This document shows, piece by piece, positions 11,720 to 21,697 of a stretch of 64,000 nucleotides of DNA. The stretch comes from Coralloluteibacterium stylophorae. GTDB taxonomy: Bacteria; Pseudomonadota; Gammaproteobacteria; Xanthomonadales; Xanthomonadaceae. Each line of letters begins with the position of its first letter. Positions within the stretch are counted from its first letter, which is position 1. The notes under the pieces are model-generated. The model had not been told where the DNA came from and did no database searches. It was given only the letters and a program-made list of their open reading frames with translations. The stretch is taken from contig NZ_JAGQFT020000002.1 in NCBI RefSeq assembly GCF_018122625.2, positions 62,001 to 126,000 on the forward strand, read 5' to 3'. The position numbers were made by a program, and so were the translations under genes.

Positions 11720-12328
11720 ATGCCTGCACAGAACGACGCTTCCGCAAGCTCCCGGCCGAAGGCCGACCGCCCCGGCCGCCTGAGCGCCGACGACTGGTCC
11801 CAGGCCGCGCTCGACCAGATCGCCGAGCAGGGCGTGGCCAGCGTGGCGGTCGAACCGCTCGCGCGCCGGCTCGGGGTCACCAAGGGCAGCTTCTACTGGC
11901 ACTTCGCATCGCGCGACGCGCTGCTGGTCGCCGCGCTCGAGCGCTGGGAGGCGATCGAGCAGGAGACCGTGTTCGGACGGCTCGAGCAGATCCCGCAGCC
12001 ACGCGAGCGCCTGCGCGCGCTGTTTCGGGTCGTTGCCCAGGAAGTGACGCCCCACGCGATCTACTCGGAACTGCTCAAGGCGATCGACCATCCCGCGGTG
12101 CAGCCGGTGATCGAGCGCGTCTCCGGGCGGCGTCTCGCCTACCTGACCCAGGCGTTCCAGCAGGTCGGCCTCTCCGGCGACGCCGCCCAGCACCGCGCGC
12201 GCCTGACCTATGCCGCCTACGTCGGCTTCCTGCAGCTCAACCGCCAGCTCCACCAGCCGCGCCTGCATCACGACGAGTTCGAGGCCTACGTGGCGCACAT
12301 GATGGCGACGTTGATTCCCGAGGGCTGA
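11720..12328 (+). CDS. TetR/AcrR family transcriptional regulator
   Basis: This 202-aa regulator has a TetR helix-turn-helix at about residues 37-62 (EGVASVAVEPLARRLGVTKGSFYWHF-like, with the invariant GSFYWHF turn). The all-helical C-terminal ligand domain is divergent. It is transcribed away from the alpha/beta hydrolase-fadE operon, the classic arrangement of a local repressor and its target. A TACACT -10-like element at 11706-11711 lies only eight bases before the ATG and no ribosome site is seen, so the mRNA may be leaderless. The ligand is unknown; an acyl-CoA is plausible from context only. Confidence 0.88.
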   Translation: MPAQNDASASSRPKADRPGRLSADDWSQAALDQIAEQGVASVAVEPLARRLGVTKGSFYWHFASRDALLVAALERWEAIEQETVFGRLEQIPQPRERLRALFRVVAQEVTPHAIYSELLKAIDHPAVQPVIERVSGRRLAYLTQAFQQVGLSGDAAQHRARLTYAAYVGFLQLNRQLHQPRLHHDEFEAYVAHMMATLIPEG

Positions 12329-12524
12329 TCCCTGTCTGCCTGCGCCGCATCGCGCCGCGACGCGTAGCACATCCCTCGACAGGTGTCGCCCGGCGATCGG
12401 CACGGTCGCCGCACGGACGGCGACGGTGGGTTCAGTCGCCTGCTTCCACCATGCCGGCTCATATCACAGCCGAAGCTGGCTGGACGATTCCCGTCTTCCC
12501 GGCTCGGCGTCGTCGGTGGTCGAC

Positions 12525-13562
12525 ATGCAGTTCGCAAGCGCCTCTCATTTTCCGGTCGACCTGCACGTGCCGGGGCGTCGCTTCGGATTCCTGCGGATCA
12601 ACGAGACGGTGCTGGAGCGATCGACGTTCCTCGACAACCGGATCGAGGCGCCTCTGCATCAGGCGGAGTGGCGCTCGCTGGAAGAGGTCGCTGCGTCCGT
12701 CCCGCAACCGGCAGCGCCGCCGATGTGGCTGCTGCATACCTCGTTCTGCTGCTCGACGCTGCTCGCCCGCGCCTTGCACCTGCCTCCTTCATCCGTCGCG
12801 CTGAAGGAACCGCTGATCCTGCGGCGGCTGGCGGATGCGCAACGTGCGGGATGGGCGATCGATCCGTTTCTTCCGCCCACTGTGGCCCTGCTCGCGCGCC
12901 CCTGGCATGCGGGAGGGCGGGTCGTGGTCAAGCCCACCCACGTGGCCCTCAATGTTGCCGCGGCCCTGGTCGAGGCGGCGCCCGGCTCGCGGGCGCTCGC
13001 CATCTCGACGGGTATCGAGGCATTCCTCATCTCGAACCTGAAAAAGCCGCCAGCGACGCAGCAGAAGATTCCGGAACTCGCGCAACGGGCGCTGGAGGCG
13101 AGCGGGCTTGCCGCCCGGCTGCCGCCGGCTGCTTTGGCCCCGCCCGACATGTGGGCGGTGGCGGCGCTGCAGTGGTGCGCGCAGCGCGAGACGCTGGCAT
13201 CGATCCGCACACGGATCGGCGATCAGCGCTTCCGGATGATCGATGCCGATGTGCTGCTGGAGGATCTTCCGGGGCATGTCGCGGCCGTCGCCGACTGGTT
13301 CCAGCTGCAGCCGAGCGCGACCCGGCTGCGGTCGCGCGTCCAGGCCGTCTCGACGGTTCATGCCAAGAGCCCGGGCGAGATCTACGACTGGACTGACCGC
13401 GCGCGGGAGACGCGCTACCTGCTGCAGCAGTATGGGGACGATCTGCGGCGGACGTTGGCCTGGGCGGAACGGTGGGTCTACCCTGCGATGTCATCCGATG
13501 CCTTGGCGCTCGAGCGTACCGCGCCTCAGTACCTGGCTGGAGCAGCCGGCGCTTCGGCGTGA
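12525..13562 (+). CDS. Sulfotransferase-like P-loop protein, divergent
   Basis: This 345-aa protein resembles the sulfotransferase fold. After an N-terminal beta-rich segment comes WLLHTSFCCSTLLARAL (about residues 68-84), the position of the PAPS-binding P-loop, but with CCST instead of the usual RSGTT. KEPLILR follows, and a basic C-terminal third (RLRSRVQAVSTVHAKSP) is where the 3'-phosphate site would be. If active it would transfer sulfate from PAPS, but the altered loop leaves this open. The start is uncertain: ATG 12525 is chosen because similarity to a folded protein begins there, although no good ribosome site precedes it; the frame is open upstream to 12426. It is the first gene of the sulfotransferase/oxygenase/receptor cluster. 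Confidence 0.65.
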   Translation: MQFASASHFPVDLHVPGRRFGFLRINETVLERSTFLDNRIEAPLHQAEWRSLEEVAASVPQPAAPPMWLLHTSFCCSTLLARALHLPPSSVALKEPLILRRLADAQRAGWAIDPFLPPTVALLARPWHAGGRVVVKPTHVALNVAAALVEAAPGSRALAISTGIEAFLISNLKKPPATQQKIPELAQRALEASGLAARLPPAALAPPDMWAVAALQWCAQRETLASIRTRIGDQRFRMIDADVLLEDLPGHVAAVADWFQLQPSATRLRSRVQAVSTVHAKSPGEIYDWTDRARETRYLLQQYGDDLRRTLAWAERWVYPAMSSDALALERTAPQYLAGAAGASA

Positions 13563-13689
13563 AAGGGCAGTCGCTCGACAGCGACGCGCTTCTCCGGTGA
13601 CTGCCGGTGCGCAACAATGTGGCGCAGCTATCGTCGGTCAGCCCTGCTGATCGGCAGCCCACCAGCCACCAGCACAGGAGCCCGTCGCG

Positions 13690-14250
13690 ATGAAGCTTGA
13701 ATCCGCACGCAGCGCCATTGTCGACGGTCGGCCCGTGCAGGTGTTCGACGGTCTGCTGCCGGATCCCGGCAACTATGCCCAGGCGCTTGCGACGGCGCCG
13801 TTCCGGAGGTCCGAGCAGGCTCGTGCCGACACGCCGGAGTATCGACACTGGGCAAGCGAGACGCCGGTCGACGTTCTGGCGCGGCAGCCGATCGGGACGA
13901 TCACCGCGCAGGCGGTGATGGCGGCGACCGGTGGAGCCCGGTACCGCCCCTTCCGGGCGTACACGAACAGCAACGCCTATGGCGACATGCTCTTCAGCCA
14001 TGTCGACTGCGCGCCGGACGTCGGCGACGTCACCGCCCTCTGGTACCTCTGCGATCGCTGGGACTTCGAGTGGGGCGGCGAGACCGTGTTCTTCGACGCA
14101 CGCCAGGAGATCGCGTTTTCGGTCCTGCCGAGGCCCGGCAGGCTCGTGGTCTTCGACGGCGCCATCCTGCATTGCGGGCGACCGCCAGCCAGGATCTGCT
14201 ACGGTCCCCGCTTTACCTTTGCCATCAAGTACGAACGTGTTGCTGGTTGA
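13690..14250 (+). CDS. 2-oxoglutarate/Fe(II)-dependent oxygenase, prolyl-4-hydroxylase-like
   Basis: This 186-aa double-stranded beta-helix oxygenase shows the full metal and cofactor set: H104-x-D106 (SHVDC), distal H161 (AILHCGR) and R174 (GPRFTFAIKY) for the 2-oxoglutarate carboxylate. WYLCDRWDFEWGGETVFFD and PRPGRLVVFDG are typical of prolyl-hydroxylase-type enzymes that act on peptides or amino-acid side chains. An AGGAG ribosome site (13676-13680) supports the ATG at 13690. It sits between two sulfotransferase-like genes on the same strand; the next gene begins 41 bases on, so co-transcription is likely. The substrate is unknown. Confidence 0.85.
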   Translation: MKLESARSAIVDGRPVQVFDGLLPDPGNYAQALATAPFRRSEQARADTPEYRHWASETPVDVLARQPIGTITAQAVMAATGGARYRPFRAYTNSNAYGDMLFSHVDCAPDVGDVTALWYLCDRWDFEWGGETVFFDARQEIAFSVLPRPGRLVVFDGAILHCGRPPARICYGPRFTFAIKYERVAG

Positions 14251-14291
14251 CCTTCGCGTCCTCTGGCGATAACTGCCGCGCGCATACATCA

Positions 14292-15851
14292 ATGAGTCTT
14301 CGCATCGAGCGGCTGCGTACGCGTAGTCAGCACTACCTGACCCTGAAGCAGTGGGACGCCGCAGCCGCGAGCTATGAGTCGCTGCTGGCTGTTGAGCCCG
14401 ACGATGTCGACGCGCTCCTCGGATATGCGAAGGCGCAGAGCAGCCGCGGCAGGGTGCGCGCTGCACATGCCGCCGCCTTGCGTGCGCATGCACTGGCACC
14501 GCGGGAGCCGCGACAGGTGCTGGAGCTGGCAGGGCGCCTGCGTCTGCTGAACGAGTCGGGTCTGTTGGTCGATCTGCTGCGGCAATCGGGCATCGAACGG
14601 CACGATGATCCGGATGCGCTCCTGGAGCAGGCGCTGAGCGCGAGCACCATCAATGCCCATGAGGAGTCCCTGGTGCTGGTGGACCGGGTGCTCGAGCTGG
14701 CGCCGGACCTTCCCGAAGCCCGCTATCTCCGCGGCAACGTCATGATGTTCTTCGGGCGCATGGACGAGGCGGAAGTCGAACTCGAACGTGCGATCACCCT
14801 CAAGCCGGGCTATGCACAGGCGCACTGGGTCTTGTCGCGGCTGCGGCGGCAGACGCTCGAGCGCAATCACGCACAGCGCATCCGGGCCCGGCTCGCCGAG
14901 GTTCGCCCGGGCGGCCACGGCGAGACCTACCTGTCCTTCGCTCTGCACAACGAGCTCCACGATCTCGGACAGTACGCGGATGCATGGCGTGCGCTGGAAC
15001 GGGGATGCGCCGCAAAACGCGGTCTCGCTCCCCACGACCGAGCGGTGACCGCGCGTCTCTTCGATCGACTCAAGCAGCTGTGCACAGCAAACTTCGTGAA
15101 CCCCGGCCCTGCACCTGAGGGATCATTCGTGCCGATTTTCGTCATCGGCATGCACCGCTCCGGAACGACCCTGCTCGAGCGCATCCTTGGCGGTCATTCG
15201 CAGGTGGCCGACGGTGGTGAAACGTATCTCTTCACGGGTCAGATGAAGATCGCGGCGGATACGCACGTCTCCGGCGTGCTCGATCAGCGCCTGCTGGACA
15301 GGGTTTCGGACGTCGACTATCAGGCGGTGGGTGCCGGTTTCCTGCGGGCATCCGCCTGGCGCGCGCGAGGCCACGCCTACCTCACCGAAAAGCTGCCCTC
15401 CAATTTCCTGCACGCCGGGTTCATTGCGAAGGCGCTGCCGCAGGCGCGCTTCCTGCACATGCGTCGCGATCCCCGCGAGACCTGCTTCTCGAACCTGCGC
15501 ACGCTGTTCTCGGACATCGCGAGTTACTCGTACGACCAGCTCGACATGGCCGACTACTACCGCCGCTACCTCGACTTGATGGGTCACTGGCACGACGTGA
15601 TGCCGGGCAGGATCCTCGACATCTCCTACGACGCGCTGGTCGAGGATGCCGAGGCGGTGGCCAGGGACGTATTCGCGTTCTGCGGGTTGTCCTTCGAACC
15701 CGGCACGCTCGACCTCAACCGAAACGGGGCGGTCTCCACCGCCAGCAGCGCACAGGTCCGCGGCTCCATCAGCAAGCGGAAGGTTCCCGATTGGCAGCAC
15801 TACCGGCGGCACCTGCAGCCGATGCTGGAGGCGCTGGACGACCTGGTCTAG
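14292..15851 (+). CDS. Tetratricopeptide-repeat sulfotransferase
   Basis: This 519-aa protein has two parts. Residues 1-265 form TPR-like helical repeats (for example QWDAAAASYESLLAVEPDDVDAL and EARYLRGNVMMFFGRMDEAEVEL). Residues about 275-519 form a sulfotransferase domain with an intact PAPS P-loop, VIGMHRSGTTLLERIL, and a later LHMRRDPRETCFSNL that holds the 3'-phosphate-binding residues. TPR-sulfotransferase fusions are common in xanthomonads and alphaproteobacteria, usually beside 2OG oxygenases and TonB-dependent receptors; their substrates are not established. The TPR part suggests a protein or peptide acceptor. It ends 16 bases from the convergent stop of the second oxygenase. Confidence 0.88.
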   Translation: MSLRIERLRTRSQHYLTLKQWDAAAASYESLLAVEPDDVDALLGYAKAQSSRGRVRAAHAAALRAHALAPREPRQVLELAGRLRLLNESGLLVDLLRQSGIERHDDPDALLEQALSASTINAHEESLVLVDRVLELAPDLPEARYLRGNVMMFFGRMDEAEVELERAITLKPGYAQAHWVLSRLRRQTLERNHAQRIRARLAEVRPGGHGETYLSFALHNELHDLGQYADAWRALERGCAAKRGLAPHDRAVTARLFDRLKQLCTANFVNPGPAPEGSFVPIFVIGMHRSGTTLLERILGGHSQVADGGETYLFTGQMKIAADTHVSGVLDQRLLDRVSDVDYQAVGAGFLRASAWRARGHAYLTEKLPSNFLHAGFIAKALPQARFLHMRRDPRETCFSNLRTLFSDIASYSYDQLDMADYYRRYLDLMGHWHDVMPGRILDISYDALVEDAEAVARDVFAFCGLSFEPGTLDLNRNGAVSTASSAQVRGSISKRKVPDWQHYRRHLQPMLEALDDLV

Positions 15852-15867
15852 CTAAACGTTCGGATGC

Positions 15868-16527
15868 TCAGGCGCCGCGCATCTGGAACCAGCAGTTGAA
15901 CGCCACGGTGATGCGTTCGTCGTTGCCGAAGAATGGCAACACTTCATGCTGTACCCATGACGGAAACAGCACGAGCTGCCCGCCCTTGAAGCGCAGGTTC
16001 CAGGTGCCGTGCTGGTAGGGCATGGCCAGCCGCGCATTCCCGGCATCAAGGAACATGTTGCTGTAGCCGTGCGGGTTGTGGAAGCGGAGCACCCCGGACT
16101 CAGGCTGATCCGGGACCTCCTCACCCGGCGAGACGCAATACACGCCGGACCACGACGCCATAGGGTGCGTGTGCGTGATGGTGAATCCGCCCCGTCTCGT
16201 CACGTGATACCAGGTGTGCGAGAAGATCTGCAGCCGTCGCATCTGACCATCGTCATAGCCGTTGAGATGTTGCACCGTCCGGCCGAGGACGCTCCAGCAG
16301 AACTCGCGCAGGCGCTGGATGGCCGGTTCCTGCCAGGCGAACAGCGTGAAATCGCTTTCGAACACGCCTCGCTGCTGGGGCAGCGAAGGGTTCGGGTTGC
16401 CGAACCCACCCTCGCTCTCCCGCTGGAGCAGAAGAGCCTTCAGCTGCGCGTTGAGAGCCGTGGCTTCTGGATGCATGGCATCGGCGAAGGGAACGGCAAA
16501 GGGTGGATAGATGTTGGGCTCAATCAT
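15868..16527 (-). CDS. Putative 2OG-Fe(II) oxygenase of the TIGR02466 / 2OG-FeII_Oxy_5 type
   Basis: This 219-aa protein belongs to a different oxygenase family from the one at 13690. It shows H119-x-H121 in TITHTHPMASWSGVYCV, distal H194 in LFPSWVQHEVLPF and R205 in ERITVAFNCWF, matching the putative 2OG-Fe(II) oxygenase family PF13759. The ATG at 16527 has no clear ribosome site. It is transcribed in the same direction as the TonB-dependent receptor upstream of it but is separated from it by an intrinsic terminator, so expression may depend on read-through or on a weak promoter (TATGCT at 16554-16559). Catalytic role and substrate are inferred from family only. Confidence 0.85.
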   Translation of the reverse strand: MIEPNIYPPFAVPFADAMHPEATALNAQLKALLLQRESEGGFGNPNPSLPQQRGVFESDFTLFAWQEPAIQRLREFCWSVLGRTVQHLNGYDDGQMRRLQIFSHTWYHVTRRGGFTITHTHPMASWSGVYCVSPGEEVPDQPESGVLRFHNPHGYSNMFLDAGNARLAMPYQHGTWNLRFKGGQLVLFPSWVQHEVLPFFGNDERITVAFNCWFQMRGA

Positions 16528-16558
16528 CTGATGAGGTTCGCTATGAGGCTACGAGCAT

Positions 16559-16588
16559 AAAAAATGCGGCCCCTTCCGGGGCCGCATT
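16559..16588 (-). terminator. Intrinsic terminator of the TonB-dependent receptor gene
   Basis: AATGCGGCCCC (16563-16573) and its exact complement (16578-16588) form an 11-bp stem with a 4-base loop. On the minus strand the stem is followed by a run of six T (16564-16559). It lies 24 bases past the receptor stop. Confidence 0.9.
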
Positions 16589-16611
16589 CGTGTCGCACAT
16601 ACCGACGTCGA

Positions 16612-19521
16612 TCAGAAGCGCTGGGTGTAGCGGGCGTAGTAGAAGCGGCCCGGCACGTCATACTCAGGATCGAAGCTGTTGGCGAAGGTGGCCACCGAGC
16701 GCGGCGGCTCCTTCTCCAGGACGTTGTTCACGCCCAGGGTGATGCGACCGTTCCACGGCGTCTTCCAGTAGCCACTGACATCGTGGTAGGTGGTCGCGCC
16801 GATGTGGTTCTCGGCCGCAGCGATCGGCGTACCGTCTTCATCATCGACGATGCGATCCGGATCGGAGCAGAGGAACGAGTAGCCATAGTCGACGTAGGAC
16901 TGGCAGTCTTCATCGAGTCCCGAGTAGAAGCGGACGTTCCAGGTCGCGCCGAAGTCGGCGTACTCCCAACGGGTCGCCAGCGTGGAGCGCAGGCGCCAGA
17001 TGGGTCCGTACTCGCCCACCTGATTGCCGCCTTCGCTGACCTCACCACGAACGCCGTCGCCGTCCAGATCCTCTTCATACTTGGAGATATACGCGCTGTC
17101 GAGGGTGAACGAGAACGTGCCGTAGGCCGTTTCCGGGAGACGGTAGTTCAGGGTCAGATCGTAGCCTTCAACCTCGGTGCTGCCGATGTTGTTCTGGACC
17201 GAAAGCAGGTCTTCGATGCTGCCGTCGGGCTTACGCGTGATCAGCGAGCAGAAGTTTGTCAGGCCGTCGACGAAGCACGAGTTCAGGATGGCGTTGCCGG
17301 AGAACGTGGTGATGGTGTTCTCGAGCTCGATGTTCCACCAATCCAGCGAGATGTCGAAGCCCTGGATGTAGCTCGGGCTGTAGACGAAGCCCAGCGTCTT
17401 GCTGGTGGACAGCTCGGGCTGCACATTGGGGTTGCCGCCGACGGTGATGCGCTGCTGCTGGTTCGGAGCCACATAGCCGCCCTGCGGAACGCCGGATGCC
17501 ACGCAACGGGCTTGGCCTTCCGCAGACAGGCTGCCGAACGAGGCGGTGCTGCACGGATCGTTGATGGTCGGGAACGAGTCCGACTGGCCCTGGAACAGCT
17601 CGGAGATGGAAGGCGCGCGGAAACCTTCCGTGTAGTTACCGCGGACCATCAGGTCGTTGATCGGCTTCCAGCGGAAGCCCGCCTTGCTGTTTTGCGTGTC
17701 GCCGAAGGTGCTGTAGTCGGAGTAGCGGGTCGCGATATTGAGGTCGAGCAGCTGTGCGCCCGGCAGGTCCGCGAGCAGCGGGATCTGCAGCTCGAGGTAG
17801 GCTTCGTCGACGTCGTAGCCGCCGTCGGTCGCGGTACGAGCATTACCGGTGGTGTCGCCGGCGTTGATCAGCGCGTCCGGATGATCGTAGCCAGACTCCT
17901 TGCGACGCTCCGCGCCCAGCGAGAACTGCAGCGGACCTGCTGGCAGCTCGAACACGTCGCCGGACAGCGAGGCGTACCAGTACTTGTTCTGGTAACCGTA
18001 GTTGTCATGCGCTTCGAAGCCGACGTAGTCCAGCATCTCCTGGGTCAGGGAGCCGTAGCCATAGAGGTCGAGCGGCACGCAGCCGCCACCCACTGGATTC
18101 GCCGCGGTGCCGCACTGCAGGTTGCCATCGGCGTCGACGAACGTCGGGCCGAGCGCGTTACCCAACGCGGTGAAGGTGAACAGGCCGTCGGTGGTGTCGC
18201 TCTGCTCGTTCTCGCCCCAGAAGTAGCCGGCATCCCATGCGAAGTAGCGATCACCGACTTCGAAGTCGCCCTCAAACCCCAGCGTGATCGCGGTGGTGTT
18301 CACATCCTGCATGAAGCGACGGCCGCCGCTTTCAGTGAAACGACGCTGGATGCGGGTGACGTCTTCGCCAAACGGATTGTAGGCGTTGTCCGCGGACCAG
18401 ACGACGCCGGCGCCGTTCCCCGAACCGACCGTGCCGAGGGTGACGGGCATGGCGGCCAGCAGCTGCTCGGATTCGCGCTCGTTGTAGATGGCCGTGGCTT
18501 TGAAGCGCACATTGTCGGTGACATCCAGCGACGCGTTGCCGAAGATCGAGCGACGCTCCTGCGGAGTGAGCAGGTAATTCTCGGGAGCGAAGTTGTAGAT
18601 GTCGGCGCCGCCGAAGGGACGCGCCGGGCTGCCGGGGCCGTCGGTGGTCAGCGTACCGGGGACGCAGCTTGCGCCGTCCGTTGCACCCGGGAACTGGTTG
18701 CCGGCAGCAACGTTGATCGGATTGCCGTCATCGTCAAAACGGCCGGTGAAACAGGCGCTGTCGCCGAAGCCGAAGCGGCCATCCGGAGTGGTCGAGCTGC
18801 CGAACGCGTTGCCGGTGCCGAAGGTTGGCTCGGCGGAGATCTCGCGATCGCCGGCCATGACCGGGTTTTCCTTGACGTAGCCGACGCCGAAGGTGGCAGT
18901 CCAGCGGTCGCCGACGCTGCCGATGGTGAAGTCGTAGGCTTCGCGGTTGCCGTCGCCCTTGTCGAACTGGCCGAAGTAGGCATTCGCCTCGGCGCCGTCG
19001 AAGTCGGTGCGAAGCACGATGTTGATCACGCCGGCGATGGCGTCGGAACCGTAGATGACCGAGGCGCCGTCCTTCAGGACGTCGATGCGCTCGACCGCGG
19101 CGGTCGGGATCGTGTTGAGGTCGACCGCGCCGCCGAGGCCGGTGCCGCCGATCCAGCGACGGCCGTTGACCAGCACCAGGGTGCGGTCGGAGCCGAGGTT
19201 GCGCAGCGAGACCCGGGTCTCGCCGTTGCCGCCGTTGTTGAACGTGCTGTTCAGCGCCGAGCCGCCGGTGCTCAGGTTCTGGATCACGTCGCCGATCGAG
19301 GTGAGGCCCTGCGACTGGACGTCCTCGCGGCTCAGCGAGAACACCGGCTGCGAGGTCTCGACGTCGACGCGCTGGATGCGCGAGCCGGTGACCTGGATGC
19401 GGTCGAGGGTGGTTGCTTCGGAGGACTGCGCGAGCACGGCCGGGGCCGTCATCGCCAGCCCCGTGCCCGCGAACATCGCGACCTTGATCGCATTGCTCAG
19501 CGGCTTGGTCTTAAACGTCAT
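16612..19521 (-). CDS. TonB-dependent outer-membrane receptor
   Basis: This 969-aa outer-membrane transporter has a signal peptide (about 1-31, ending AVLAQ), a TonB-box-like region before LDRIQVTGSRI, a plug domain (about 45-170, with LVLVNGRRW and DVLKDGASVIYGSDAIAGVINI) and a long 22-strand barrel ending in the terminal Phe required for insertion (YYARYTQRF). The extracellular loops contain paired cysteines. It should import a bulky ligand using TonB energy; the ligand is unknown. The ATG at 19521 has a GGAGAGAG ribosome site. Base composition is lower in G+C than most of the window (60% in 17101-17160, against 73% in 26041-26100 within pilT, both counted by hand). It is divergent from nothing; the small barrel gene upstream has its own terminator. 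Confidence 0.93.
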   Translation of the reverse strand: MTFKTKPLSNAIKVAMFAGTGLAMTAPAVLAQSSEATTLDRIQVTGSRIQRVDVETSQPVFSLSREDVQSQGLTSIGDVIQNLSTGGSALNSTFNNGGNGETRVSLRNLGSDRTLVLVNGRRWIGGTGLGGAVDLNTIPTAAVERIDVLKDGASVIYGSDAIAGVINIVLRTDFDGAEANAYFGQFDKGDGNREAYDFTIGSVGDRWTATFGVGYVKENPVMAGDREISAEPTFGTGNAFGSSTTPDGRFGFGDSACFTGRFDDDGNPINVAAGNQFPGATDGASCVPGTLTTDGPGSPARPFGGADIYNFAPENYLLTPQERRSIFGNASLDVTDNVRFKATAIYNERESEQLLAAMPVTLGTVGSGNGAGVVWSADNAYNPFGEDVTRIQRRFTESGGRRFMQDVNTTAITLGFEGDFEVGDRYFAWDAGYFWGENEQSDTTDGLFTFTALGNALGPTFVDADGNLQCGTAANPVGGGCVPLDLYGYGSLTQEMLDYVGFEAHDNYGYQNKYWYASLSGDVFELPAGPLQFSLGAERRKESGYDHPDALINAGDTTGNARTATDGGYDVDEAYLELQIPLLADLPGAQLLDLNIATRYSDYSTFGDTQNSKAGFRWKPINDLMVRGNYTEGFRAPSISELFQGQSDSFPTINDPCSTASFGSLSAEGQARCVASGVPQGGYVAPNQQQRITVGGNPNVQPELSTSKTLGFVYSPSYIQGFDISLDWWNIELENTITTFSGNAILNSCFVDGLTNFCSLITRKPDGSIEDLLSVQNNIGSTEVEGYDLTLNYRLPETAYGTFSFTLDSAYISKYEEDLDGDGVRGEVSEGGNQVGEYGPIWRLRSTLATRWEYADFGATWNVRFYSGLDEDCQSYVDYGYSFLCSDPDRIVDDEDGTPIAAAENHIGATTYHDVSGYWKTPWNGRITLGVNNVLEKEPPRSVATFANSFDPEYDVPGRFYYARYTQRF

Positions 19522-19598
19522 GACTCTCTCTCCAGAAAGGGCTTTCAAGTGCATCTGTAACCACCCCTGAACCGACGAGGAACCGGGGGTGCCTCCGG

Positions 19599-19627
19599 AT
19601 CATAGCGGCTCTTCCAAGAGAATTAAA
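19599..19627 (-). promoter_or_regulatory. Promoter candidate for the TonB-dependent receptor
   Basis: On the minus strand TATGAT (19604-19599) is preceded after 17 bases by TTTAAT (19627-19622). Transcription would start near 19592, giving a leader of about 70 bases. The -10 is good, the -35 weak. Confidence 0.5.
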
Positions 19628-19667
19628 GTAGCGTTAACACACGCCGTCTTGACATCGATCTGGATGC

Positions 19668-19693
19668 AAAAAACCCCGGCGGGGCCGGGGCTT
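19668..19693 (-). terminator. Intrinsic terminator of the small barrel gene
   Basis: CCCCGGC (19674-19680) pairs with GCCGGGG (19684-19690) around a 3-base loop. On the minus strand six T follow (19673-19668). This separates the upstream gene from the receptor gene. Confidence 0.85.
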
Positions 19694-19732
19694 GCGGGTC
19701 GTTCCTGCTGCTTTTTCTATGTGATCGGCGCG

Positions 19733-20707
19733 TCAAAGATCCTGCTGGTAACGGACGTACGGCACCCGTCCGGCGTCTTCCGTCTCCTCGCCGGTCGTGC
19801 TGCTCCACGGGTTCTTGCCGCGGGTGACGATGTTGTCCGCGCCCACGCTCAGACGGCCCTGCCAGGGCGTGCGCCAGCTCAGGCCGAGGCCCAGGCTGCC
19901 GAAGCTGTCGTCCTGGCCCGGAAGTTCGGTGACGCGGCCGATGACCGAGCCGCTGAAGGCGCCGTAGCCGGCGCCGACGCCGACCGACGTGGTATCCCAC
20001 TGGTCCGGCAGGAGCGCGGCCGCGGCATCGTTGGCCGGAACCAGGCGCGCGCGCGCGACGGTGCCGCCGATCTCGAGCCAGCCGTCGCTGCCGAGCTGCA
20101 GCACGCCACGCGCGCCGAGGTCGTCCTGCCTGACCTGCGCATCGACGGGAAGGGCCGACAGCGGATTGATCGACAGCCACTGGGGCAGCGACGAACCCGC
20201 CGTCGCCGCGCCTGCGAGCGGTGCGCCCTGGAGACGCGAGCGGGTGACGCCGGCTTCGATCGAGACGCTGGCGTCGCCCCGCTCCAACTGTGCCTCGAAG
20301 CCGAGGCGGCCCCCGCTCGCCGACTGATCGTCCATGCGTGCCAGCAGGCAATGCTCGGCGAGCCCGCCCAGCGTTGCCGCGAGGCCGCTCCTGCCGTTGC
20401 ACAGCAGCGCCAGGTTGCCCATCGGCTCGGCCTCGAGCGAAGAACGCAGGCGGACGCCGTCACCCACCGTGCGGCTCGCCCCGAGACCGAGACCCGGGCG
20501 CGGCGCGAGCGGCGGCAGTGGCGCGTCGAACAGGCGCGACTCCTCTTCCGCCGGCTCGAGCAGAAGCAGCGCCTCCACCTTGCCGCTGTCGTGGTTCCAG
20601 ACCGGCAGCACCGCGGTGTCCGTCGCCGTCGTCTGCGCAAGCGCCGGCGCTGTCGACCCGGCGAGGGCGAGGGCGGCGGCGAGCAGGCTGGTAGGCAGCG
20701 TCGTCAT
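19733..20707 (-). CDS. Exported protein with a TonB-receptor-like C-terminal barrel end but no plug
   Basis: This 324-aa protein has a signal peptide (about 1-24, ending APALAQ). The body alternates short beta-strands with turns, as in an outer-membrane barrel. Its C-terminus, W-R-TPW-Q-GR-LSVGADNIV...GRVPYVRYQQDL, closely parallels the end of the neighbouring receptor, W-K-TPW-N-GR-ITLGVNNVL...GRFYYARYTQRF. There is no plug domain and no TonB box. It may be a receptor-derived remnant turned small barrel, or a partner of the receptor. It has its own terminator and sits directly upstream of the receptor on the same strand. The name of any family is unknown to me. Confidence 0.7.
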   Translation of the reverse strand: MTTLPTSLLAAALALAGSTAPALAQTTATDTAVLPVWNHDSGKVEALLLLEPAEEESRLFDAPLPPLAPRPGLGLGASRTVGDGVRLRSSLEAEPMGNLALLCNGRSGLAATLGGLAEHCLLARMDDQSASGGRLGFEAQLERGDASVSIEAGVTRSRLQGAPLAGAATAGSSLPQWLSINPLSALPVDAQVRQDDLGARGVLQLGSDGWLEIGGTVARARLVPANDAAAALLPDQWDTTSVGVGAGYGAFSGSVIGRVTELPGQDDSFGSLGLGLSWRTPWQGRLSVGADNIVTRGKNPWSSTTGEETEDAGRVPYVRYQQDL

Positions 20708-20794: not shown

Positions 20795-21697
20795 TCACTG
20801 CAGCCCGGGCGGCGCCGGATGGGTGGCCGCCGGGCCGAACAGCGCCTCGATATCCCCACGGTCGAACCGGTAGGCCGTTCCGCAGAACTCGCAGCGGATC
20901 TCGGCCTCGCCGCTGGCCGCGGCGGCCAGCGCTTCCTCCTCCCCGATCCCTCGCAGGACTGCCTCGACGCGCTCGCGGGAGCAGGAGCAGCCGAAAGAGA
21001 GCGGGGTATAAGCCAGCAGCCGCGCGTCCTCCTCGTGGAACAGCCGCCACAGCAATTGCTCCGCCGGAAGCGCGCGTAGTTCGTCGTCGCGGAGCGTTTC
21101 CAGCAGCGCGCCTACGCGGGTCCAGCCGTCGCTGTCGCCGTGGTCTCCCGGCAGCCTCTGCAGCATCAGGCCGGCCGCGGTATCGCCCTCGGCCGTCAGT
21201 CTGAGCAGGGTCGGCAGCTGTTCGGAGTTCGCGAAATAGCCTTCGAAGGCGTCGCCGAGGGTGTCCGCATCCAGGTCGACCAACCCCTGGTAGCGCTGGG
21301 GCTCGGGGGCGCCGGCCGGCTGGTTCTCGATCGTGATCGCAAGCACCGCGCCCTCGCCCAGATCGCGCGGCGACAGGCACGCCGGTACCGCATCCTCGGC
21401 GTGGGCGAGGCCGCGCAGCGTGCCCTGGGCCGTGCATTCGGCGAACAGGGTCCGCAGCGGTCCGGTGCCCTTCATCTGCACGCTCAGGCGGCCCTCGACC
21501 TTGGCGTGGCCGGTGAACAGGGCCGCGGCGGCGGTGGCCTCGCCCAGCAGCCGCGCCACCGGCCCGGCGTAGTCCGAGGTGCTGCGGATGGTCTGCCAGG
21601 TGGCATCGAGCCGCACCAGCACGCCGCGTACGCCCGCACGTTCGAGGAGGAAGCGGTGCAGCGCGTCGGGAGTGGCAGTGGAGTCGTGATCGGTCAT
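20795..21697 (-). CDS. hslO: Redox-regulated chaperonin Hsp33
   Basis: Hsp33 is a cytoplasmic holdase chaperone that is switched on by oxidation of a zinc-binding cysteine cluster. All four cysteines are present: C237-x-C239 (FGCSCS) and C269-x-x-C272 (RCEFC). The 300-aa length is normal. I chose the ATG at 21697 because the family N-terminal sequence ([23 protein letters not shown]) starts just after it; the frame is open far upstream without homology. It is divergent from mtgA with 60 bases between. Confidence 0.95.

Follow-up and report, generated by a model that had tools for sequence, protein, structure and literature searches.

Among the bacterial kin of tyrosylprotein sulfotransferases (TPST), RaxST acts on RaxX. 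Predicted neighbourhoods in which TonB receptors adjoin 2OG or JmjC oxygenases, halogenases or SapC were reportedly assembled by Iyer, Abhiman, de Souza and Aravind in 2010, with modification of peptides or siderophores proposed. The locus of Coralloluteibacterium stylophorae analysed here likewise has oxygenases adjoining a TonB receptor. To our knowledge, outer-membrane receptors are not recognised as targets of sulfation and hydroxylation, and no account of the locus was found in the open-licence literature at the level of titles and abstract openings.

Parts and borders of the locus

ORF calls across the window (the whole 64,000-nt stretch of DNA that was analysed) recovered six consecutive genes where a sequence-only reading of the same DNA had placed them. 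The borders of the locus are hsp33 on one side and tetR/acyl-CoA dehydrogenase on the other, an address common across the host's family. The features are as follows:

11720–12328, forward strand: TetR-family regulator (PF00440), border of the conserved site, seen in locus maps
12525–13562, forward strand: ST1, divergent sulfotransferase-fold protein of 345 aa, TPST-like by predicted structure
13690–14250, forward strand: OXa, FlmC-like 2OG-Fe(II) oxygenase of 186 aa (PF13640)
14292–15851, forward strand: TPR-ST, TPR repeats plus TPST-type sulfotransferase, 519 aa (PF13469, 3.3e-46, and TPR models)
15868–16527, reverse strand: OXb, 2OG-Fe(II) oxygenase of 219 aa (PF13759, 8e-20)
16562–16589, reverse strand: terminator-like hairpin in the gap between receptor and OXb (fold scan against shuffles)
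16612–19554, reverse strand: TonB-dependent receptor with plug, 980 aa (PF00593, 5.7e-38; PF07715, 2.3e-22)
19733–20707, reverse strand: XOO1806-family plugless outer-membrane barrel (NF052276), core neighbour of hsp33
20795–21697, reverse strand: Hsp33 (PF01430), other border of the conserved site

The gaps between the six genes measure 127, 41, 16, 84 and 178 bp, leaving no gene-sized space for a precursor peptide; the sequence-only reading had likewise found neither a precursor peptide nor a transport ATPase inside. The window locus yielded no halogenase, SapC or biosynthetic gene, and no exporter, transporter or biosynthetic assembly line occurs among the recurrent interval gene families of related loci. 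The GC content of the six-gene block is 0.63–0.69; most of the window's other 2-kb stretches have 0.70–0.76. Terminator-like hairpins separate the barrel, receptor and OXb genes (7 such sites in the region, vs 4.2 ± 2.2 in shuffles), so that these genes probably do not share a single simple transcript. Sixteen of 18 cassette loci carry a similar GGCCCC..GGGGCC..T-run on the upstream side of OXb; a promoter scan found 1 site, vs 0.7 in shuffles, and an Rfam search gave no match.

Sulfotransferases, oxygenases, receptor and barrel

The predicted domains of TPR-ST agree with the TPR-sulfotransferase claimed earlier. By sequence it is closest to protein-tyrosine sulfotransferases: four solved sequences match at E ≤ 1e-5, every one of this kind, and residues R289, E310 and K367, kept in 68, 68 and 69 of 69 homologues, align with the TPST catalytic Arg/Glu/Lys (which we take to be Arg78/Glu99/Lys158 of TPST2). 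Its predicted activity is transfer of sulfate from PAPS to tyrosine. TPR-PF13469 relatives were found in 26 of 185 sampled Gammaproteobacteria genomes, three of the 26 in the window's own family.

ST1 had been described as a divergent sulfotransferase-like protein. It has no Pfam match up to E = 1, and its sequence profile found one chance-level match among solved structures; a structure model was therefore used instead. The AlphaFold model (pLDDT 89.6) matches tyrosylprotein sulfotransferases first, which favours the description: Foldseek ranks TPST2 best (1.8e-4, TM 0.47; TM range 0.40–0.47), and VIA-align places TPST entries at ranks 1–7 (Z 15.1–14.1, rmsd 3.4–3.9 over 222–237 residues), the next entry having Z 12.9. 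Thus, a TPST-like fold is predicted for ST1. In a weak alignment with TPR-ST (probability 11.7%, E 0.0025), E95, K136 and S170 agree, and F74 and T162 stand opposite R289 and R392.

OXa exceeds the PF13640 cut-off (39.4 vs 27 bits, E 1.3e-9), and the H104, D106 and H161 of its HxD...H metal motif are invariant in 13 sequences. Its nearest family is FlmC (NF052475), yet it scores under that curated cut-off (128 vs 240 bits); the sequence-only reading had called it a prolyl-hydroxylase-type oxygenase. OXb, for which a TIGR02466-type assignment had been given, reaches 54.7 bits against a cut-off of 62.5 and falls instead in the broader PF13759; its solved relatives are 3bvc and 2rg4, and H119, H121, H194 and R205 are invariant in 22 sequences. 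Both domains of the large TonB-dependent receptor, as it had been called, are over their cut-offs (plug PF07715, 80 bits; barrel PF00593, 132 bits), and its nearest solved sequences are BtuB and other TonB receptors, mainly across the plug.

The small barrel passes the XOO1806 (NF052276) cut-off (314.4 vs 280 bits). Its model (pLDDT 72.8) matches CymA best (Z 14.9), and its last 49 columns are homologous to the receptor tail. It occurs in 117 of 119 family genomes, with or without the other genes, and within 2 kb of hsp33 in 100 of 116. As such a core gene it was ruled out as a specific part of the cassette, to which it is probably not particular; the plugless receptor-like barrel of the sequence-only reading is present, though not as a component peculiar to the system.

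Linkage of enzymes and receptors across genomes

At a family match cut-off of 80 bits, the co-occurrence that the sequence-only reading had proposed to look for, four or more of the six families inside 15 kb, is seen in 22 of the 116 family genomes, and 8 of the 116 have the complete set; both counts include the genome of the window. With the barrel as anchor, a receptor lies within 12 kb in 91 of 116 genomes. A mechanical gene caller and author-set tblastn cut-offs, with contig ends hiding neighbours at some loci, gave enzyme and receptor together in 66 genomes, enzyme alone in 3, receptor alone in 25 and neither in 22 (Fisher p 5e-8, ignoring kinship); weighted by genus, these counts become 28.3, 2.5, 12.3 and 9.8 over 53 genera. 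In the named loci with an OXb of at least 60% identity, a receptor is present in 30 of 30 and TPR-ST in 29 of 30; below 60% identity, a receptor accompanies just 19 of 50 OXb relatives. The window's genome has three TPR-STs, each no more than 5 kb from a receptor plug.

Kinship was controlled with a single-gene hsp33 FastTree tree covering 108 of 116 rows (the 8 without an hsp33 match left out). OXb and its receptor clade occur together in 15 cases, OXb only in 1, the receptor only in 2 and neither in 90, and gain and loss of the two coincide (7 independent pairs, median p 0.016). Median p values were 0.125 for OXb with TPR-ST, 0.0625 for OXb with OXa, 0.125 for OXa with TPR-ST, 0.125 for TPR-ST with any receptor or with the receptor clade, and 1 for the AspH-like protein with any receptor. 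Independent variation between close relatives, named in advance as the outcome that would make the grouping accidental, was not seen for OXb and the receptor clade; ST1 and OXa are missing from some loci (of 61 two-bordered loci, 10 contain ST1). The grouping of the six genes is beyond chance.

At the same site, relatives carry either Oar-type receptors together with TPR-sulfotransferases or receptors paired with an AspH-like TPR-hydroxylase whose nearest solved relative is AspH (E 3e-32); some have another PF13640 oxygenase. Locus maps show the TPR-ST family accompanying two receptor classes. An insertion hotspot beside hsp33, giving grouping with no joint function, would account for the differing cargo of relatives, their tandem receptor duplicates, the sigma, anti-sigma and DUF4097 genes inserted in some, and the low GC of the block. 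A general hotspot is expected to be more varied, however: of 227 interval genes, 171 encode receptors or one of the five enzyme kinds, and 21 are singletons or small groups, partly annotated. Moreover, a receptor lies near TPR-ST in six of seven retrieved loci that lack the barrel (L052, L053, L059, L068, L069 and L071, not L070), and OXb changes together with its receptor clade. This already disfavoured explanation is very improbable.

Candidate target residues were sought in 20 OXb-linked receptors, 7 unlinked receptors of the same clade and 69 others, and no residue in this set follows the enzymes beyond kinship. Same-clade receptors without neighbouring enzymes are those of loci L025, L027, L028, L029 and L030. 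Candidates such as P662 and P963, which are altered in two receptors lacking OXb (L025 and L028), were rejected as OXb-dependent residues; the two loci are from one genus, so that the change represents at most one event. Acid-flanked tyrosines are not enriched in TPR-ST-linked receptors (2.83 vs 2.61 per protein, 48 vs 49 proteins).

Proposed substrate and comparison with known systems

In Lysobacter-type bacteria the receptor is maintained at one address with enzymes that resemble those sulfating or hydroxylating animal proteins, which suggests chemical modification of the receptor or its cargo, and it is very probable that receptor and enzymes act jointly. Our preferred reading, to which we give a probability of roughly 0.45, is that the locus encodes a set of cytosolic protein-modifying enzymes tied to a receptor, with the receptor polypeptide as their substrate. 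By inspection, no signal peptide was found on the enzymes, which, with their cosubstrates PAPS and 2-oxoglutarate being cytosolic, would place their action before export. The TPR domain might dock on the receptor preprotein while it is still unfolded. In segments destined for surface loops, side chains would be hydroxylated by OXa and OXb and sulfated by TPR-ST, perhaps with ST1; the modified receptor would then undergo Sec export and BAM insertion. The benefit could be altered ligand specificity, or a receptor hidden from phages and bacteriocins. In favour are the linkage of enzymes to receptors, the protein-modifying solved relatives, the conserved TPST catalytic residues and the two receptor classes that TPR-ST accompanies. 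Against it weigh the residue and tyrosine comparisons, the same-clade receptors lacking enzyme neighbours, the pair tests above 0.05, the OXb relatives below 60% identity, the terminator-like hairpins and the resemblance of the AspH-like protein to lipid hydroxylases. The sequence-only reading had suggested that a peptide, a protein loop or an imported ligand is hydroxylated and sulfated; the enzyme types fit this, and the small barrel drops out as not specific to the set.

Ligand processing is a common explanation for enzymes beside an uptake receptor, and linkage suits a ligand as well as a receptor substrate: an imported peptide or metallophore could be processed in the cytosol, or a self-made compound hydroxylated, sulfated, released and retrieved. 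A methyltransferase at some related loci fits such chemistry. However, TonB receptors carry their ligands no further than the periplasm, whereas the enzymes appear to be cytosolic, and the TPR-ST family goes with two receptor classes. The window's gaps have no room for a precursor peptide, and no transporter, exporter or assembly line is among the recurrent interval families. We consider action on a ligand rather unlikely. Outer-membrane lipids or surface glycans, with the receptor as a neighbour working in the same envelope, are an improbable substrate. PF05118 and PF13469 do contain lipid- and sugar-acting enzymes, and the AspH-like protein of relatives weakly resembles the lipid hydroxylases OlsC and LpxO (115 and 55 bits, far under cut-offs), but the nearest solved structures belong to enzymes acting on proteins, the TPR domains point to protein partners, and it is receptors to which the enzymes are linked; lipid or glycan gene families do not recur in the interval.

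Modification of the receptor itself can be extended, more tentatively, to a general proposal: TonB receptors of these bacteria may undergo sulfation and hydroxylation in the cytosol, ahead of export, through an exchangeable kit at one ancestral address, a bacterial counterpart of eukaryotic TPST and AspH that diversifies outer-membrane receptors. If so, a bacterium could alter the chemistry of a receptor while its gene stays the same, which would bear on nutrient uptake and on the phages and bacteriocins that exploit such receptors; large families of TPR-sulfotransferases and 2OG oxygenases with no assigned function would gain a testable role. If the ligand is the substrate instead, the locus would point to imported or recycled compounds of a new class.

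The small barrel is by score a member of the XOO1806 family; that model covers the barrel alone, and its siting beside hsp33 and receptors across the family was seen in this analysis. TPR-ST resembles TPST1 and TPST2 in sulfotransferase-domain sequence and catalytic Arg/Glu/Lys, and ST1 resembles them by predicted fold, appearing in its weak alignment to lack two arginines that hold PAPS in TPST. Unlike TPST1 and TPST2, TPR-ST is fused to TPR repeats, apparently cytosolic, and linked to an outer-membrane receptor. AspH (TPR plus PF05118) has a domain order identical to that of the relatives' TPR-hydroxylase, which is absent from the window itself and found at the site in relatives. In contrast to the TonB-receptor neighbourhoods attributed to Iyer and co-workers, the window locus has TPST-like sulfotransferases and one conserved chromosomal address.

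The cassette and its recurrence across the family

The six genes lie in a 4.0-Mb genome as two facing groups: a divergent sulfotransferase-fold protein (ST1), a 2OG oxygenase (OXa) and a TPR-sulfotransferase (TPR-ST) on the plus strand; then a second 2OG oxygenase (OXb), a plug-bearing TonB-dependent receptor and a plugless barrel on the minus strand, with 16 bp between the ends of TPR-ST and OXb. The locus has no gap big enough for a precursor peptide gene. Its borders and hairpins are:

Border, one side: TetR, alpha/beta hydrolase, acyl-CoA dehydrogenase
Border, other side: Hsp33, transglycosylase, glycosyltransferase, CBS protein
16589-16562: terminator-like hairpin, receptor/OXb interval
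19686-19672: terminator-like hairpin, barrel/receptor interval

Terminator-like sites are not enriched in this region (7 versus 4.2 +/- 2.2 in shuffles), but a hairpin like that of the receptor/OXb interval precedes OXb in 16 of 18 cassette loci. In several relatives (L012, L014, L016-L019, L021, L031, L045) adjacent enzyme genes share 4 bp. A GTP-dependent PEP carboxykinase gene separates tetR from the cassette in many relatives and is absent from that place in the window (12329-12524).

Among 119 family genomes, matches were found to the barrel in 117 (E <= 1e-10), TPR-ST in 87 (E <= 1e-50), the receptor in 84 (E <= 1e-150), OXb in 41 and OXa in 24 (both E <= 1e-15), and ST1 in 22 (E <= 1e-10). 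With the barrel gene as anchor, neighbourhoods were read in 117 genomes, the window's own among them; one locus (L018), whose anchor falls just beyond its stretch, was dropped, leaving 116. Hsp33 lies within 2 kb of the anchor in 100 of these, and 91 have a receptor no more than 12 kb away. One or more of five enzyme kinds are present at 69 anchors, 66 of them with a receptor (Fisher p 5e-8, kinship ignored) and three (L077, L135, L143) with no receptor in range. The sequence-only reading had proposed a six-gene system that linkage in relatives would support, and such linkage does recur: 22/116 genomes have four or more of the six families inside 15 kb, and 8/116 have all six. When kinship is controlled for with an hsp33 tree of 108 genomes, gains and losses of OXb go with those of its receptor clade (7 independent pairs, median p 0.016), and none of the remaining pairs read there falls below 0.05. 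Receptors of the window's clade also occur with no adjoining enzymes (L025, L027-L030).

A scan of named genomes, partly overlapping the first sample, gave 80 OXb loci. The 30 with at least 60% identity, found in Lysobacter species, Vulcaniibacterium thermophilum, Luteimonas and Pseudoxanthomonas spadix among others, have a receptor in 30, TPR-ST in 29 (the other, L160, runs into a contig edge), OXa in 21 and ST1 in 19. Distant OXb relatives are often unlinked: among the 50 below 60%, a receptor is present in 19, TPR-ST in 14, and any of receptor, TPR-ST or AspH-like protein in 25.

TPR-STs also neighbour receptors away from the barrel. The genome containing the window encodes three (E <= 1e-50), and each has a receptor plug no more than 5 kb away (2/2 when the window's own is set aside); the genome has 36 plugs, and 8.4% of it lies within 5 kb of one. 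The two additional loci are:

L052, G000:C2:336357-340587: TPR-ST locus of the same genome
L053, G000:C5:417-4390: TPR-ST locus of the same genome

One of these TPR-STs adjoins an Oar-like receptor on the same strand, the other a facing TBDR-class receptor. Contig 11 encodes a fourth strong PF13469 protein, which has no plug closer than about 15 kb. Barrel-less TPR-ST loci, a sample chosen by rank and not randomly, have a receptor nearby in 6/7.

Exchangeable content of the address

The intervals of 61 two-bordered loci contain 227 called genes, 171 of which are receptors (62 TBDR-class, 14 Oar-class) or enzymes (41 TPR-ST, 19 OXb, 15 OXa, 10 ST1 and 10 AspH-like TPR-hydroxylases). TBDR-class receptors occur in 51/61 loci and Oar-class receptors in 9/61, sets that may overlap. 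Two main cargoes recur: receptor-OXb-TPR-ST-(ST1)-OXa, as in the window, and Oar-like receptors followed by one or two same-strand TPR-STs. The other 56 genes comprise 7 sigma factors, 9 DUF4097 proteins, 2 PF00850-like proteins and 38 unnamed: 7 anti-sigma-like, 3 methyltransferase-like, 7 grouped by likeness to two PF13640-matching proteins (L086, L131), and 21 singletons or small groups, annotated in part, some perhaps not genes.

In several Lysobacter-type genomes (L012, L016-L020 and others) a block of ECF-type sigma factor, anti-sigma-like protein and DUF4097 lies inside the cassette, between TPR-ST and OXb, and the trio also appears in some Oar-type loci (L061, L062, L065). Class-I methyltransferase-like proteins, possibly a further member of the enzyme kit, are encoded between the receptor and TPR-ST or the barrel at L085, L089, L092, L110, L136, L153 and L220 (L092, L110 and L220 were scanned). 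Related receptors located away from this address (L038, L039, L042, L047) lie near thiC, have an AraC-type regulator and winged-helix/PD40 protein beside them, and lack the cassette enzymes.

Enzymes, barrel and receptor

TPR-ST has a PF13469 domain. In the PDB its sulfotransferase domain has four distinct sequence matches with E <= 1e-5, every one a protein-tyrosine sulfotransferase. R289, E310 and K367, retained in 68/69, 68/69 and 69/69 homologues respectively, align with Arg78, Glu99 and Lys158 of TPST2. ST1 has no Pfam match and no meaningful match in a PDB sequence search; in structure comparison of its predicted model (pLDDT 89.6), the top seven entries are all TPST (Z 15.1-14.1, rmsd 3.4-3.9), ahead of other sulfotransferases (Z 12.9 downward). 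In a weak profile alignment with TPR-ST (E 0.0025, probability 11.7%), E95, K136 and S170 of ST1 pair with E310, K367 and S400, but F74 and T162 stand opposite R289 and R392; ST1 may therefore be an enzyme that has diverged, or else a partner protein. The HxD...H motif of OXa is invariant in 13 sequences, and in OXb, a PF13759 oxygenase with putative metal binding, HxH plus a later His and Arg are invariant in 22. Among solved structures the TPR-hydroxylase comes closest to AspH entries; its similarity to OlsC and LpxO scores far under their cut-offs.

The barrel is an XOO1806-family protein, and its plugless model, of moderate confidence (pLDDT 72.8), matches CymA best (Z 14.9); Foldseek returned nothing for it at E <= 0.001. 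In profile comparison with the receptor, the last 49 barrel columns alone align (hhalign E 2.8e-7), as if two different barrels had C-terminal strands in common. Two cysteines of the barrel (C103, C120) are invariant. In an alignment of 21 receptors, eight receptor cysteines (C481, C492, C668, C684, C760, C769, C884, C896) show little or no variation, which suggests disulfides in surface loops.

Proposed modification of the receptor

Receptor and enzymes are co-located, OXb and its receptor clade are co-inherited, and the closest solved relatives of the enzyme types are protein modifiers. We propose that the enzymes act in the cytosol, where the TPRs would serve as the docking part and the receptor preprotein would be sulfated and hydroxylated ahead of export. 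A terminator between receptor and OXb would make the receptor abundant and the enzyme scarce, fitting substrate and catalyst; sequence tests for a target residue in the receptor gave none. The ligand of the receptor, rather than the receptor, could instead be the substrate, a weaker explanation because the TPR-ST family goes with two classes of receptor and because none of the gene families recurring in the interval is a transporter, an exporter or biosynthetic.

Searches of an open-licence library, which covers few subscription papers, turned up no conserved address where a receptor is paired with exchangeable TPST- and AspH-like kits. The gene families of the locus are already known, and a link between oxygenases and receptors has been proposed earlier.
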